Source: Erysipelotrichaceae bacterium (GTDB lineage Bacteria > Bacillota_I > Bacilli_A > Erysipelotrichales > Erysipelotrichaceae). Taken from it: DNA of 54,288 nucleotides. The position numbers and the translations under genes are program-made. The DNA lies in the NCBI GenBank assembly GCA_017431405.1, contig JAFRLB010000088.1:1-54288 (forward strand), given 5' to 3'. Position 1 is the first letter of the stretch, and every line of letters begins with the position of its first letter. The notes under the pieces were generated by a model. The model was not told the DNA's origin, ran no database searches, and saw nothing but the letters and a program-made list of their open reading frames with translations. Below are positions 5,605 to 37,474 of the stretch, in pieces.

Positions 5605-7073
5605 ATCTTGTTCCTCCTGACACTTTCAACAGCCTTTTTCCATAAATTACGTTTGGCTGTTCTTGTTTCTTCATTCATCTGCGGTTCATAACTGCTTCTG
5701 TTAATGTTCTCAAAGACAGTTTCCTCATAAATGCCCTTGCTTAAGCCGGCCATGTAGGCTGCCCCAATGCAGGAGAGTTCTTCTACATCAGGAACCAGTA
5801 ACTTACAGTTCAGCATGTCACTTTGAAACTGCATCAGATATTTATCACGGGTTGCCCCACCGTCTACTCTTAATTCAGTTACGGATACTCCCGCATTATT
5901 AACCATTGTTTCTACTACGTCAGTGATCTGATGAGCAATAGAATCTTCAGCTGCTCTTACTACTTCATTCTTACCGGTTGTTCTGCTCATGAAGCAGATA
6001 GAAGCCTTGGCACTGGTATCCCAATGTGGGGCACCTAGGCCACTGAAAGCCGGTACAAGTACCGTTACATCATCAGGATTGGCCAGTTTAGCCAGCTTAC
6101 CGCTTTCCTTGGCATCATAAATAAGTTTCAGATCATCCTTCAGCCAGGTAATTACCGCACAGCTGAAAGTTACATTGCCTTCCAATACATAATAGATCTG
6201 ACCATTTCTTTTCCAGGCAACACAGGCCGCAATGCCATCACACATTACCGGTTTTGTACCGACATTCATCATGATTGAAGAACCGGTACCGTAGGTTGCC
6301 TTGATCATGCCTTCCTTATGGCAACCCTGACCAAATAAAGCGGCATGAGAGTCACCCATCATGGCACTGACAGTAACCTTATTCTCAAAATAACCTTCCA
6401 GATCAGTACACCCGAAACATTCATCAGATGCACATATTACAGGTAATGAGTCCAGGGAAATACCAAACCTGTTACATATCTCCCTGCTCCAGCATAACTT
6501 CTCCAAGTCCATTAACATGGTTCTGGAAGCATTTGAAACATCGGTCTTAAATTCACCGGTTAACTTGAACAGTAACCAGCTGTCAATTGTCCCAAAACAT
6601 AACTCACCATTTTCATTTAAAGCCCTTGCTTCAGAAACATTATTCAGTATCCAGCTCATCTTTGGCCCGGCATAATATGGCGAATAGTTCAAACCGGTTA
6701 TTTCATTAACCTTCTTACCAAACCCATCAACATTCAATTTCTGACACAGTTCTTCGGCCCTGGCACATTGCCAGACAATGGCATTATATACAGGTTTCCC
6801 TGTTTTTTTATTCCAGGCAACCGTTGTTTCACGCTGATTGCTGATGCCGATGGTAACGACGTCATTTTTATCAATGCCGTTTTTTTCTATTACTTCCTTT
6901 ATGCAGCTGACTGTATTATTCCAGATCTCCTCTGGGTCATGTTCAACATAGTTATTGCTTAGTATTATCTGTCTGTGTGGTCTGTCAGTTCTGCCGATTA
7001 TCTTACCTTGTTCATCAAATAATAAGACCTTTGTTCCCTGAGTACTCTGATCTATGCCTATAACATACTTCAT
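5601..7073 (-). CDS. FGGY carbohydrate kinase, glycerol-kinase-like
   Basis: I start the gene at the ATG giving MKYVIGIDQST (490 residues), because AAGGA lies 8 nt before it and the preceding stop is 4 nt away; an in-frame ATG seven codons earlier lacks this. FGGY kinases phosphorylate polyols and ketoses with ATP. It closely resembles glycerol kinase: NQRET (R81, E82), IVWQ (W101), SPYYAG and GDSHAALFGQG (D241). The glutamine that follows the catalytic Asp in glycerol kinase is Ser242 here, which may shift specificity toward another polyol or ketose. GTGSS and the C-terminal VDGGATRD loop are intact. It is co-translated with a TIM-barrel isomerase, so it probably makes the phosphorylated intermediate of this pathway. 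Confidence 0.8.
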   Translation of the reverse strand: MKYVIGIDQSTQGTKVLLFDEQGKIIGRTDRPHRQIILSNNYVEHDPEEIWNNTVSCIKEVIEKNGIDKNDVVTIGISNQRETTVAWNKKTGKPVYNAIVWQCARAEELCQKLNVDGFGKKVNEITGLNYSPYYAGPKMSWILNNVSEARALNENGELCFGTIDSWLLFKLTGEFKTDVSNASRTMLMDLEKLCWSREICNRFGISLDSLPVICASDECFGCTDLEGYFENKVTVSAMMGDSHAALFGQGCHKEGMIKATYGTGSSIMMNVGTKPVMCDGIAACVAWKRNGQIYYVLEGNVTFSCAVITWLKDDLKLIYDAKESGKLAKLANPDDVTVLVPAFSGLGAPHWDTSAKASICFMSRTTGKNEVVRAAEDSIAHQITDVVETMVNNAGVSVTELRVDGGATRDKYLMQFQSDMLNCKLLVPDVEELSCIGAAYMAGLSKGIYEETVFENINRSSYEPQMNEETRTAKRNLWKKAVESVRRNKI

Positions 7074-7077
7074 ATAA

Positions 7078-8136
7078 CTATTCCTTCTGATCATCAGTTA
7101 CTTCAAAGATCATGGCATCGTATTTCTTATCCTTAGGTCCATCCCATATCCTGTTACGGTAATAGGTAAACCTTACACCATCCTTTTCATACTGACGGTC
7201 AAAGATGCCATCAGGCACTACCTTTCTTAACAAGCAGAAACATGCTCTGCCTTCATTAAGATCCAGGGCATCCTGCCAGCCCATGTCCTTTAATACCTGG
7301 GTAAAGGAATCCAGGTTAGGACTTCTTCTCAAGTGACATGGCTTGCCATTGTATTCATCGATAGGTGCCCTCTTATCTTCATATGGCTTATACAGCAAAG
7401 TACCGGCATCAGGATTCTTAAACAGAATGTATTCAGCCATTTCCAGATACTTATCAACATAAGAAGCATCATGTAAGCCATTACCGGCTGCTAAGATGTC
7501 GTAATCCTTACGGTAAGAAGCCCATCTCTTCAAATTACGGTAGCTTCTTTCAACACTGATGCGGCTGTCAAAGAAATTACCGTTTAATTCATCACCACAG
7601 AACAGTATTCTGCTCTTTCTGTCCAAAAACTGTAATGATCCCGGGCAATGCTCATCTATTAACATTACTTCCAGCTCCCTGCCCTTTAAGTTAAAGATGT
7701 CACCATCTTCCAAGAAAACGACCGGGTAGTCACCTGGGAAGCCAAGAGCTTCATGTTCAGGAGCCAGTCTATGTGAATAGGTCTGTTTGGACATGTAGGT
7801 AACGTCAAACAGGTAGTTATTCATTGTATGGTCAGAATGAAAATGAGTATTAACGATTCTGTATAACGGCTTTTCAGGACAAAGTGACTGACAGAATGCC
7901 CTTAAGTCACCTACACCATTACCGCCATCAATGCACAGCAATTCATCATCACCTTCAAGCACATAGGTATAGTCGCCATTGCTTAAAACCTGCCATACGC
8001 CATCAGTAACCTTCTTAGCCTTGAAATAAGGTTCACTGCGTAATCTGATATCGCCTTCTTCATCCATGAGATACTCACTGGAGTATTCCGGAACTTCTAT
8101 TGCCTTCATGTTGCGTTTCCACTTCAAGCCGCTCAT
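7078..8136 (-). CDS. MBL-fold metallohydrolase
   Basis: The protein has 352 residues. The metallo-beta-lactamase core carries HxHxDH as H98, H100, D102 and H103, then H163 in DEHCPGS and D182 in FCGDE, a complete dinuclear-metal set. About 20 N-terminal residues precede the domain and a C-terminal extension of roughly 130 residues follows. No signal peptide is seen, so it is cytoplasmic. GGAGGT lies 6 nt upstream of ATG. It is the first gene of the leftward operon. A lactone, thioester or phosphate-ester hydrolase role is possible; the substrate is unknown. Confidence 0.8.
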   Translation of the reverse strand: MSGLKWKRNMKAIEVPEYSSEYLMDEEGDIRLRSEPYFKAKKVTDGVWQVLSNGDYTYVLEGDDELLCIDGGNGVGDLRAFCQSLCPEKPLYRIVNTHFHSDHTMNNYLFDVTYMSKQTYSHRLAPEHEALGFPGDYPVVFLEDGDIFNLKGRELEVMLIDEHCPGSLQFLDRKSRILFCGDELNGNFFDSRISVERSYRNLKRWASYRKDYDILAAGNGLHDASYVDKYLEMAEYILFKNPDAGTLLYKPYEDKRAPIDEYNGKPCHLRRSPNLDSFTQVLKDMGWQDALDLNEGRACFCLLRKVVPDGIFDRQYEKDGVRFTYYRNRIWDGPKDKKYDAMIFEVTDDQKE

Positions 8137-22118: not shown

Positions 22119-23366
22119 TTAAATTGCCGAAACTGGCAATACCAGCACATTATCTTTTATGCTATATGGACTTCCGGTAGTACATATGATTGCATCTGTT
22201 TTCCTTTGCAACGATGTATTATTCAACTTTTCAAAAGATGTAACATCATTGTAACTGTAATTTATTCCTGACTTACACTCAATAAGTGACAGTGTCCCAT
22301 TATGAGGAATGACAAGATCTATCTCCTTCTGCTGATTATCACGGTAATAGTAGATAGGCTGATCTATTCCATTATTCATATAGCTTTTCCTGATCTCATT
22401 CGCTATATACGTTTCGACAAAACGACCTTTCATGAAACTTGCCTGAAGGGTTTTTTCATCCCTTATACCTGCCAGATAACACGCCATACCTGTATCAAAG
22501 AAATATAGTTTAGGACGTCTGACAATCATTTTTGAAACAGAATGCTCATTGTATGGCAGAGCAAGCCAGACGATACCAGTCTTTACCAAACTAGAGACCC
22601 ATTCTTTTATAGTCGGTGAACTTACACCAACCTGTTTTGCGTAATTATCATATATAAGTTCCTGCCCTGTATTTGAGGCAAGAAGCATCATAAAATTCTC
22701 AAATTTCAGATAATCTTTAACAACAAGAACTTCAGTTAGATCTTTCTGTAAATATGTCTCTATATAGTTTGAAAAAAACTGCTGTAATGGCATTTCACTG
22801 TCGTCATACAACTGGGGCATCATGCCACGTAAAATATATGATAAGAGTTGCTTCTCATCAAGGGAAAAGTCATTTGCTCTTTTTACTGAGCCTAACTTAT
22901 CTATCGTAAATGGTTCATCATCAAACCCCTGTATCTCTCTCATACTGAGTGGATTCATTTTCAGAATATTTACTCTTCCCGCAAGGGACTCCCTGGCATT
23001 ATCCATAAGAGCTCTTGAACTGCTTCCTGACAGAATAAACATTCCATTTGCAGCCTTATTTCCTTTCTCCAGTCTGGTTTGGTTAACTATTTCTTCTATA
23101 GCCGGAAACAATTCCTTTGCCCTCTGACATTCATCGATGATTATTGGAGTATTATGTCCTCTTAAAAACCCTTCTGGATCATTTCTGGCATTCATCAATT
23201 CGATTCTATTGTCTAATGTGACATACTCATAGCCAAGTGGTTGAATATTATGATATAACTCCGTAGATTTTCCTACCTGACGAGGACCACTTATGATTGT
23301 CACAGGAAAATGCTTTATAGAATCTTTTATTTGCTCAGTAATAGTTCTTTTAATCATTATCATCAT
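22119..23366 (-). CDS. AAA ATPase B with DUF4143 C-terminus
   Basis: The 415-residue protein has Walker A SGPRQVGKS (26-34), Walker B IIIDECQ (75-81), a FILSGSSSR sensor, the LNPLSMREI-type segment typical of AAA_14 proteins, and a C-terminal DUF4143 part with RPKLYFFDTGMACYLAGI and the PD-(D/E)xK-like pattern EIDLVIPHNGTLSLIECKSG. Several in-frame ATGs cluster at the start (MMIMIK); AGGAAATGGG precedes the first. It is a stand-alone gene with an extended -10 promoter and two operator-like boxes. Function of the family is unsettled; a role in DNA metabolism, mobile elements or defence is only suspected. Confidence 0.85.
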   Translation of the reverse strand: MMIMIKRTITEQIKDSIKHFPVTIISGPRQVGKSTELYHNIQPLGYEYVTLDNRIELMNARNDPEGFLRGHNTPIIIDECQRAKELFPAIEEIVNQTRLEKGNKAANGMFILSGSSSRALMDNARESLAGRVNILKMNPLSMREIQGFDDEPFTIDKLGSVKRANDFSLDEKQLLSYILRGMMPQLYDDSEMPLQQFFSNYIETYLQKDLTEVLVVKDYLKFENFMMLLASNTGQELIYDNYAKQVGVSSPTIKEWVSSLVKTGIVWLALPYNEHSVSKMIVRRPKLYFFDTGMACYLAGIRDEKTLQASFMKGRFVETYIANEIRKSYMNNGIDQPIYYYRDNQQKEIDLVIPHNGTLSLIECKSGINYSYNDVTSFEKLNNTSLQRKTDAIICTTGSPYSIKDNVLVLPVSAI

Positions 23367-23382
23367 CCCATTTCCTGACTAT

Positions 23383-23448
23383 ATTATAACATCTTTTAGA
23401 CTTTTTTAAAGTTGAACTTTATTTTTTCTAAAGTGCAACTTTATTTTT
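23383..23448 (-). promoter_or_regulatory. ATPase B promoter with two palindromic boxes at 22-bp period
   Basis: TGTTATAAT (plus 23383-23391) is an extended -10. Upstream lie AAAGTTGAACTTT (23408-23420) and AAAGTGCAACTTT (23430-23442), each nearly a perfect palindrome and each followed by ATTTTT. They agree at 17 of 19 positions over the longer unit and start exactly 22 bp apart, two helical turns. The nearer box overlaps the -35 position, as expected for a repressor site. Confidence 0.75.
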
Positions 23449-23503
23449 AACATTCCGTTTAAACAGATAATGAATGAAATTATCATTAAAAAAGGAAACA
23501 ACA

Positions 23504-31472: not shown

Positions 31473-31847
31473 TTATATATGGCAAGTTATCCAGATCAAG
31501 GTATCCGTATACCCAAGTTTTCCATCAGCAATTCCCAGAAACAAATCACTTAATTCATTCTGTTCATATTCAAGTTCAATCCCATTTAAAGCAAGGAACA
31601 CTAACATGACATGAGCACCGATTCTTTTATTGCCATCCATAAATGCATGATTACTTGCAAGGTCAAATCCGAGTCTTGCTGCCTTCTGATATATTGACGG
31701 GAATAATTCCTGACCATCAAATGTCTGAAATGGAGCTGCCAGGGCAGACTCAAGCATTCCCTCATCATTAATGCCATAACTTCCACCTGTTTCATCAATT
31801 AACTGCTTATGCAAGAATATAACCTGATCTTTAGAAAGAATTATCAT
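31473..31847 (-). CDS. doc: Doc-family toxin (Fic fold)
   Basis: The 124-residue protein is full length for Doc. The Fic motif is intact: HAFMDGNKR at 67-75, and GGSYGINDEGMLESALAAPFQTFDGQELFP matches the Doc N-terminal region. Doc phosphorylates elongation factor Tu and stops translation. The ATG overlaps the antitoxin stop by 4 nt, the usual coupling in phd-doc modules. Confidence 0.93.
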   Translation of the reverse strand: MIILSKDQVIFLHKQLIDETGGSYGINDEGMLESALAAPFQTFDGQELFPSIYQKAARLGFDLASNHAFMDGNKRIGAHVMLVFLALNGIELEYEQNELSDLFLGIADGKLGYTDTLIWITCHI

Positions 31848-32086
31848 TTAGCAAGTTCCTCATAAGCTTTACGATTCTTCTTGATAAGTCTTTCAGAAAT
31901 GTTCTTCAGATCTTCATTTGAAGCCATCTGCATTTCTTCTGTTTCTTCAAAATTAATAATTAGATAGCGAGGCTTATTGTTTTTAATTATGATTGCTGAT
32001 CCGGCATGATCCACCATCCTGGCAACCTTAGAAAAATTCTGATTTGCTTCGGTCATCGAGATAATATTACGTGTATCAACTAGCAT
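31844..32086 (-). CDS. phd: Phd-family antitoxin
   Basis: The 80-residue protein has the Phd/YefM N-terminal domain (ISMTEANQNFSKVARMVDHAGSAIIIKNNKPRYLIINFEE) and a charged C-terminal tail (ISERLIKKNRKAYEELAK) suited to capping Doc. AAGGAGGT lies 7 nt upstream. The promoter just before carries an inverted repeat for autoregulation. Confidence 0.92.
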   Translation of the reverse strand: MLVDTRNIISMTEANQNFSKVARMVDHAGSAIIIKNNKPRYLIINFEETEEMQMASNEDLKNISERLIKKNRKAYEELAK

Positions 32087-35922: not shown

Positions 35923-37326
35923 CTATCTTTCTGGTATTTTCAAGTCATCAAAGCTTATCTTTTTCAGAATATTTGCGGGATAACTTTCTTTTAAAAAACC
36001 TGTATAGTAAAGTGGGTAGGTTTTAAACAGTTCTCCATTCCCTATGTTTGTATCTGCTATTTTGATTGCGGAATGTTTTCCGTATTTTTGCGGATGCTGC
36101 AAAACATATTTCATACTTGTAGCTTTCCCGTTCGATGACTTACACTCAATAATTGTTATCTCACCATCAATATCAGCTACAAAATCAAGTTCAGGTGCCC
36201 CACTGGAGCCACGATAATAATATAATTTACGATTATTATCATATAATGCTAATGCAACAACGTTCTCTGCAATAGCACCTTTGTATGCCCCGATGTCACC
36301 GTTAAGTATCTTTGCAGCGGCATCATTTCCCAATTGAGATACAAGTAATCCCGTATCAGCGTAATATGCTTTATATTCCTTACTGATTTTATTAGCTTCC
36401 AAAGGAGATGACAGTTCCCTTAAATTGTAGGCTTTTACGACAAGGCCAAGATCTGCAAGATACTGCAAAGCATCTGCCTTATCATCTGAATGAGCTTTAT
36501 TGTCAACGTTACTGTACTGAAACTTCTTATATTCTTTTGACAATTGTGCAGGCAGAGAATCAAGACAGGCTTCTGCTCTTAATTTTAAAACTTCATTAGC
36601 ATTCTCGTTACCATTTGAATCAATATATCTGCCTAAGTCATCCCTAATTGAATCTAATATTCTTTTCTGTATGCTTCTTACAGCGTTAATGTCATGGTGC
36701 TGCATAAACTCATTTACTGCTTCAGGCATTCCACCAACAACAAGATATTCAAAGTAAAGGTCTCTCATCCTCTCATGTATTGCTGCATCAATTACTTTTG
36801 ATTCATTTATACACTGCTGGACGTATTCAATGATATTCTGTGGCATGCCATAATTATTAAGAAATTCTCTGAATGTCAGCGGGAACATTGTCATATGTTC
36901 TTCATAGCCAACAGGTATCCCCCTCTGATACGGCTTTCTGAAACCCTTGACACCAAGGAAGCTTCCCGTGGCAATGACATCATACCTTCCATCTAAATCC
37001 CAGTATTTTAAAGAACTGCGAGCATTAGGACAGTCCTGAATCTCATCCATAATGACCAGTGTTTCTGACGGAACAAATGTTGCATCAAATAACAGAGCAG
37101 TAATTCTGCTGACCATTCTATTAACATCAAAATCACCTTCAAATACAGTATGGAGGCTCTTATTGGACCTGAAATCCATGTACACAACATTCCTGTAATT
37201 TTCGTGTCCAAACTGTCTGACAATGTAGGTCTTTCCAACCTGGCGAAGCCCGGACAAAATTAACGGATGGTGATTATTTCTCAATTTCCAATCTACTAAT
37301 TGCTTCATTATATCTCTCGCCAACAT
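35923..37326 (-). CDS. AAA ATPase C with DUF4143 C-terminus
   Basis: The 467-residue protein has Walker A SGLRQVGKT (25-33), Walker B LVIMDEIQD (90-98), a DVIATGSFLG sensor, MFPLTFREFL and a C-terminal DUF4143/nuclease-like part with KAYYADTGLLVSQLG and ELDFVADIDGEITIIECKSS. It is about 50 residues longer than ATPase B. AGGAG precedes ATG. It is single, with a TAGAAT -10 about 30 nt upstream and three phased repeats beyond it. As with A and B, the biochemical role is unsettled. Confidence 0.85.
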   Translation of the reverse strand: MLARDIMKQLVDWKLRNNHHPLILSGLRQVGKTYIVRQFGHENYRNVVYMDFRSNKSLHTVFEGDFDVNRMVSRITALLFDATFVPSETLVIMDEIQDCPNARSSLKYWDLDGRYDVIATGSFLGVKGFRKPYQRGIPVGYEEHMTMFPLTFREFLNNYGMPQNIIEYVQQCINESKVIDAAIHERMRDLYFEYLVVGGMPEAVNEFMQHHDINAVRSIQKRILDSIRDDLGRYIDSNGNENANEVLKLRAEACLDSLPAQLSKEYKKFQYSNVDNKAHSDDKADALQYLADLGLVVKAYNLRELSSPLEANKISKEYKAYYADTGLLVSQLGNDAAAKILNGDIGAYKGAIAENVVALALYDNNRKLYYYRGSSGAPELDFVADIDGEITIIECKSSNGKATSMKYVLQHPQKYGKHSAIKIADTNIGNGELFKTYPLYYTGFLKESYPANILKKISFDDLKIPER

Positions 37327-37360
37327 AAGATCACACTCCTACACTATTATTCTACACTAG

Positions 37361-37446
37361 TTTGTATTTTTTTAAAGGGTAAAACATGTGCACTTTGTAT
37401 TTTTTTAAAGGGTTAATTATGTTTGTTTTGTGTTTTTTTAAACGTT
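37361..37446. repeat. Three 20-bp repeats at exact 33-bp period upstream of ATPase C
   Basis: TTTGTATTTTTTTAAAGGGT occurs identically at 37361-37380 and 37394-37413; a third unit at 37427-37446 matches at 17 of 20. Spacing is exactly 33 bp, about three helical turns, with 13-bp non-identical spacers. The first unit abuts the probable -35/-10 of ATPase C, so the array is likely an operator or protein assembly site. Confidence 0.85.
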
Positions 37447-37452
37447 TAACAT

Positions 37453-37474
37453 AAAAACCGGGAATTATCCCGGC
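37453..37474 (-). terminator. Terminator of the suf operon
   Basis: CCGGGA-ATTA-TCCCGG is followed on the minus strand by TTTTTATG. It lies about 215 nt after the last gene of the suf operon; no nearer terminator was seen. Confidence 0.75.

Follow-up and report, generated by a model that had tools for sequence, protein, structure and literature searches.

A 33-bp head-to-tail repeat array at the promoter of a stand-alone DUF4143 ATPase recurs among its homologues and is a candidate autoregulatory operator

Results

ATPase C and its predicted structure

The window, that is, the whole 54,288-nucleotide stretch of DNA analyzed here, carries on its minus strand a stand-alone gene (35923–37326, with the ATG at 37326) encoding a protein of 467 residues (hereafter ATPase C). 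With the Pfam gathering scores as cut-offs, ATPase C matched AAA_14 at residues 19–156 (75.3 bits; cut-off 27) and DUF4143 at residues 249–398 (99.1 bits; cut-off 28.1), and residues 1–447 matched the PADLOC PDC-S01 model PDLC04786 with an E value of 5.9e-133. The AlphaFold2 model (mean pLDDT 87) comprises an ATPase core, a winged helix, and a C-terminal domain. The predicted winged-helix region (residues 245–322; 36361–36594, minus strand) is made up of helices 245–262 and 280–293 and strands 296–302 and 313–322, and the second of these helices (36448–36489, minus strand) is the putative recognition helix. From about residue 346 to 445 (35992–36291, minus strand), the predicted fold and the invariant columns suggest a PD-(D/E)XK-like region; E354, D381, E394, and K396 are invariant across 35 homologues, so the catalytic residues are kept, and nuclease activity is inferred. 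A structure search with the model gave the archaeal AAA+ ATPases 2qen (PABY2304) and 2fna (SSO1545) as the best matches to the core and winged helix at Z 15–16 (16.2 and 15.5, respectively), together with the CED-4/NLR STAND ATPases (Z about 13–14.5), and Orc entries also matched. However, 2fna, 2qen, and CED-4 have only about 12–17% identity to ATPase C, and these matches barely test its nuclease-like C-terminal part. A fold shared with STAND/SSO1545-type ATPases does not by itself settle the membership of ATPase C in that group. Elsewhere in the window (31473–32086, minus strand), a gene for a Phd/YefM-type antitoxin and one of the Fic/Doc family overlap, adjoining an SNF2 helicase gene.

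Three-unit array upstream of ATPase C

Upstream of the gene, TTTGTATTTTTTTAAAGGGT at 37361–37380 is followed by an identical copy (20/20 bp) at 37394–37413 and by a third copy at 37427–37446 that matches at 17 of 20 positions; on the minus strand, the first unit reads ACCCTTTAAAAAAATACAAA and the third AACGTTTAAAAAAACACAAA. The three units run head to tail over 37361–37446 with a step of exactly 33 bp. The repeats described in an initial annotation of this DNA were thus confirmed, coordinates included; three matches with up to three mismatches were found in the window and none in 100 dinucleotide shuffles, and the same three units are the sole such matches in the whole 1.84-Mb genome. When the units were widened to 23 nt, copies 2 and 3 showed 96% and 83% identity to copy 1.

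A promoter-like pair (37349–37376, minus strand), which rests on a consensus match only, consists of a −35 hexamer TTTAAA (37376–37371), a 16-bp spacer, and a −10 hexamer TAGAAT (37354–37349). The promoter-proximal unit had been described as bordering this pair; it does adjoin the promoter, but it in fact contains the −35 hexamer. The promoter score taken alone is close to chance for AT-rich DNA, and the call gains weight because the homologues retain the same −35/−10 geometry. Similarly, the 33-bp step had been described as about three helical turns, with binding on the same face of the DNA. With 10.5 bp to a turn, it amounts to 3.14 turns, and therefore neighboring sites lie near, but not exactly on, one face. 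An intrinsic terminator suspected by eye at 37453–37473, between the array and the upstream operon, was not called by a terminator scan. A CRISPR array was ruled out because the spacers of 13–16 bp are too short and the copies number only three to five, and a structured RNA element was ruled out because no Rfam match was found up to an E value of 1; the position of the array upstream of the −10 also opposes both readings.

Occurrence of the array among homologues

Homologues were collected from 194 related genomes, genome contigs of many phyla, and further fetched loci, and their upstream regions were scored for three copies of a 17-nt unit at lags of 18–60 against dinucleotide shuffles, with arrays called at z > 4. 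This test called arrays in 123 of the 176 upstream regions and, once duplicates had been removed, in 120 of 170, compared with 12 of 400 other genes from the same loci, none of which had a 33-bp lag. The absence of phased repeats from homologous genes, which had been set beforehand as a refutation, was therefore not observed. In the non-redundant set, the lags were 33/33 in 83 called arrays and 32/32 in 17. Fifty homologues had no called triple; in about 26 of these, the best two copies still lay 32 or 33 bp apart (every other lag averaged about 0.5), and about a fifth of the homologues had no 32–33 bp signal at all.

The arrays occur in both bacteria and archaea. Plasmid records of Glaesserella parasuis (33/33, z 7.0) and Collinsella aerofaciens (33/33, z 15.1), a named Ruminococcus albus record (32/32, z 4.5), and a phage-labelled gut scaffold (33/33, z 11.9) carry them; the signal was borderline in an Acinetobacter plasmid (32/33, z 2.7), and the array test gave none in a Fusobacterium record. 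Because arrays are present in named isolate records, the feature does not stem from contaminated MAGs. Only 1 of 28 PF09820 relatives, another AAA plus PD-(D/E)XK family, had an array, so that a general trait of AAA-plus-nuclease ATPases is rejected as far as PF09820 is concerned. Although PF09820 genes at large lack arrays, two genes of this type have short-period arrays of their own: one of 10 bp, TTGGTAATCR (L103; minus strand, ORF 6661–7354), and one of 21 bp, TGATTCGGCAATATTTGGTGC (L085; plus strand, ORF 601–2506). The array in the window is an instance of a family-wide feature and not a local oddity.

Array anatomy

In 117 aligned arrays, three units were present in 83, four in 31, and five in 3, and the spacing was 33 bp in 209 and 32 bp in 51 of the 271 intervals. 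The sites are asymmetric and all in the same orientation. A run of A's and the TG after it are conserved in the unit, and the flanks vary more; within a locus, the copies share 78% identity in the units and 53% in the spacers. We also considered that no dedicated protein binds the array and that it arose as a tandem promoter or by slippage, with −35-like and −10-like words duplicated in 33-bp steps; one hexamer of each kind can fit in each period, and the copy number ranges from 2 to 5. This explanation is hardly tenable given that conservation lies in the units and not in the spacers, that different phyla share the 32–33 bp step, Bacteroidales and an archaeal MAG locus with different promoters among them, and that other genes do not have such arrays.

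Confinement of the unit to the ATPase C promoter

A wide genomic occurrence of the unit would have spoken against a link with ATPase genes. In 20 genomes (about 57 Mb), 54 of 59 near-exact matches (≤1 mismatch) fell within the array, and the other five equal the number given by the reversed-pattern background; for the coriobacterial unit, all six matches were consistent with arrays. Since matches are essentially confined to the array, a widespread genomic motif was ruled out, and so was a virus-borne target array, as viral contigs gave 35 lone, chance-like matches and no array.

The closest relative differs at this place. In this genome (G007, locus L319, about 1360–1420), the flanking sequence shares about 96% identity with the window, ATPase C is absent from this place, and a two-unit remnant, spaced at 33 bp, lies in front of the neighboring SNF2 helicase gene. 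The ATPase gene was probably lost and the array left behind; insertion of the gene next to an array that already existed is less likely, but is not excluded. Apart from this remnant, no array was found away from the gene, which speaks against a chiefly non-regulatory array that would mark or load the ATPase in the manner of origin or centromere repeats, with its promoter position being secondary. An array combined with an ATPase does resemble iteron or Orc-box layouts, and AAA+ Orc1/Cdc6 proteins, which are among the structural matches of ATPase C, bind origin repeats via a winged helix. By contrast, the arrays lie at the gene's own promoter with the −35 within the last unit, and the gene sits among unrelated chromosomal neighbors. 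A mainly non-regulatory role is thus very improbable.

Co-divergence of the unit with ATPase C

The distance between units tracked the distance between proteins (rho 0.42, Mantel p about 0.002), whereas the spacer (0.09) and the leader (0.00) did not. Orthologue-like protein pairs with more than 55% identity from different phyla had a unit identity of 0.77; by comparison, paralogues with less than 45% identity within one genome had 0.49, unrelated pairs 0.52, and the shuffled control 0.41. As judged from these sequence comparisons, the unit follows the ATPase protein and not the host. No neighbor gene family occurred in more than 4 of 106 loci, with the exception of one large cluster (23 loci) that, by its sequence, looks like an antisense frame of the ATPase gene, and a shared neighboring regulator was ruled out because no neighbor family recurs. 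Because the unit tracks the protein, the sites are confined, and no neighbor recurs, the ATPase itself is the favored binder over a host or neighbor regulator, in the absence of binding data. Another regulator, host-encoded or unlinked, could still bind the array and control the ATPase gene, since binding by the ATPase has not been demonstrated and unlinked regulators control many promoters. Such a regulator would have to follow the ATPase across phyla, differ between paralogues of one genome, leave no recurrent family among the neighbors, and serve the ATPase gene alone, because its sites occur at no other gene; we consider this quite unlikely.

Within the closest clade, of more than 50% identity, the strongest residue–base covariation was between position 12 of the unit and residues 278 and 286, which lie in or beside the putative recognition helix. 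On the tree, this covariation rests on about three evolutionary events, and it is suggestive only. A tree-corrected test of changes in the recognition helix had too few independent events, and three of its seven apparent exceptions (rows L052, L065, and L079) had been given the unit of a second gene in the same locus. Mapping of specificity by 40-residue protein windows pointed to no clear domain.

Arrays in other DUF4143 subfamilies

Head-to-tail arrays with a 23-bp step were called in 16 of 32 B-type DUF4143 genes (12 at 23/23), whereas A-type genes mostly lack arrays (called in 3 of 31). As the 33- and 23-bp spacings differ by about one helical turn, we infer that neighbors would keep a similar relative angle. 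The 23-bp arrays at the B-type loci L228, L232, L235, L247, L249, and L250 are quite different in sequence and have up to five units; upstream of the L228 gene, AAATTTACCGATTGAAATCTTAC occurs five times. In the window itself, the region upstream of ATPase B (22122–23366, minus strand) contains AATAAAGTTGNACTTTA twice, about 22 bp apart, at 23367–23460, and a gene related to ATPase B on another contig (C78) has one copy of it. In the A-type upstream regions of L260, L261, and L262, paired elements of 20–40 nt flanking the −10 were judged by eye. Inverted-repeat arms of at least 9 were found in 4 of 31 A-type regions against about 4% in shuffles, which is too weak to claim palindromes.

Promoter geometry across homologues

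A TATAAT match of 5/6 or better was located 3′ of the last unit in 62 of 104 loci (29 expected), and the −10 mostly lies 16–17 bp from a hexamer, usually TTGAAA, within the last unit. At 34 of the 117 loci, no more than 25 nt separate the end of the last unit from the start codon, which fits repression. In many loci, the array extends far upstream of the −35. The opposite direction of control is also conceivable: a chain of the ATPase upstream of and over the −35 would recruit RNA polymerase in positive feedback. Class II activators, too, use direct repeats that extend upstream and stop at the −35, and the array lies upstream of the −10 in most loci. However, a good −35 and −10 at 16–17 bp are already present in many of these promoters, and a protein bound as close as 25 nt or less to the start codon would hinder transcription and not assist it. 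Activation therefore remains a possibility, albeit an unlikely one.

Discussion

Our preferred interpretation is that the array is an autoregulatory operator, to which ATPase C would bind head to tail at its own promoter to repress itself; we give this reading a probability of roughly 60%, and both the binding and the repression are inferred, as is defence as the biological role, whereas the sequences do show the array itself, its spacing and conservation, its restriction to this promoter, and its co-divergence with the protein. In this mechanism, the winged helix of one protomer would read each asymmetric site of about 18 bp, and protomers placed head to tail every 33 bp would bring three to five of them into contact along the DNA, a contact that is likewise inferred. 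The chain would cover the −35, and in some relatives the start region, and block transcription, so that a potentially harmful ATPase-nuclease is kept scarce. The promoter would reopen if the ATPase were drawn away, altered in its nucleotide state, or depleted, as might happen when a foreign element invades.

Several points stand against self-repression. There are no binding or expression data, and the covariation depends on so few events. The homologues without any 32–33 bp signal, the reach of many arrays far upstream of the −35, which is also seen with activators, and the two units retained by at least one close relative without the ATPase also have to be accounted for. A bolder version would have DUF4143 ATPase-nucleases stored inactive in head-to-tail chains on an array specific to themselves, with 33 bp per protomer, or 23 bp in another subfamily, such that invasion empties the array, frees the enzyme, and induces more of it. 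We regard this version as doubtful.

The proposed operator differs from known cases. Most dimeric repressors read inverted repeats, unlike the asymmetric, same-orientation sites of these arrays. In Phd/Doc toxin-antitoxin systems and with the C proteins of restriction-modification systems, binding to the own promoter keeps a potentially toxic product low; those regulators are small, dedicated proteins that mostly read inverted repeats, whereas here the candidate reader is an ATPase-nuclease and the sites are head to tail. Orc1/Cdc6 and the iteron or DnaA-type initiators, which are AAA+ or winged-helix proteins, recognize several direct repeats beside their own gene, but the sites described here lie across a promoter, and nothing points to a role in replication.

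ATPase C matches the PDC-S01 models and resembles this group in being a stand-alone single gene that combines an ATPase with a PD-(D/E)XK-superfamily domain and is spread over bacteria and archaea. PDC-S01, in which an ATPase is fused to a domain of this superfamily, is reported to rank fourth in frequency among the predicted defence genes of prokaryotes (PMC12988326) and to be the single locus met most often in genomes from the rumen (PMC13356809). Validation is pending for most PDC candidates (PMC12988326), and the antiviral role of PDC-S01 is a prediction in these papers; ATPase C is accordingly a candidate phage-defence protein, its antiviral role being a prediction only. The initial annotation knew of no operator of this type for DUF4143 ATPases, and the open-access literature likewise yielded none, nor any published operator or regulation for the PDC-S01 family, nor a self-operator for 2fna/2qen/CED-4-type ATPases. 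No earlier description of such arrayed operators was found there either, most subscription journals being outside the scope of the search, and a keyword search on AAA_14/PF13173 returned unrelated text only. The sole DUF4143-naming paper found concerns a Thermus AAA_14/DUF4143 gene, the RNA of which was up 6.6-fold with a plasmid present in an Argonaute-bearing strain (PMC4406477).

PDC-S01 is very common as a predicted defence gene, yet its mode of action is unknown. A family-wide self-operator would amount to more than 100 natural protein–site pairs, in which DNA binding is directly testable, and the 33- or 23-bp arrays may serve as a sequence mark for sorting DUF4143 subfamilies. Such an operator would also be a clue to how these ATPase-nucleases are kept quiet.
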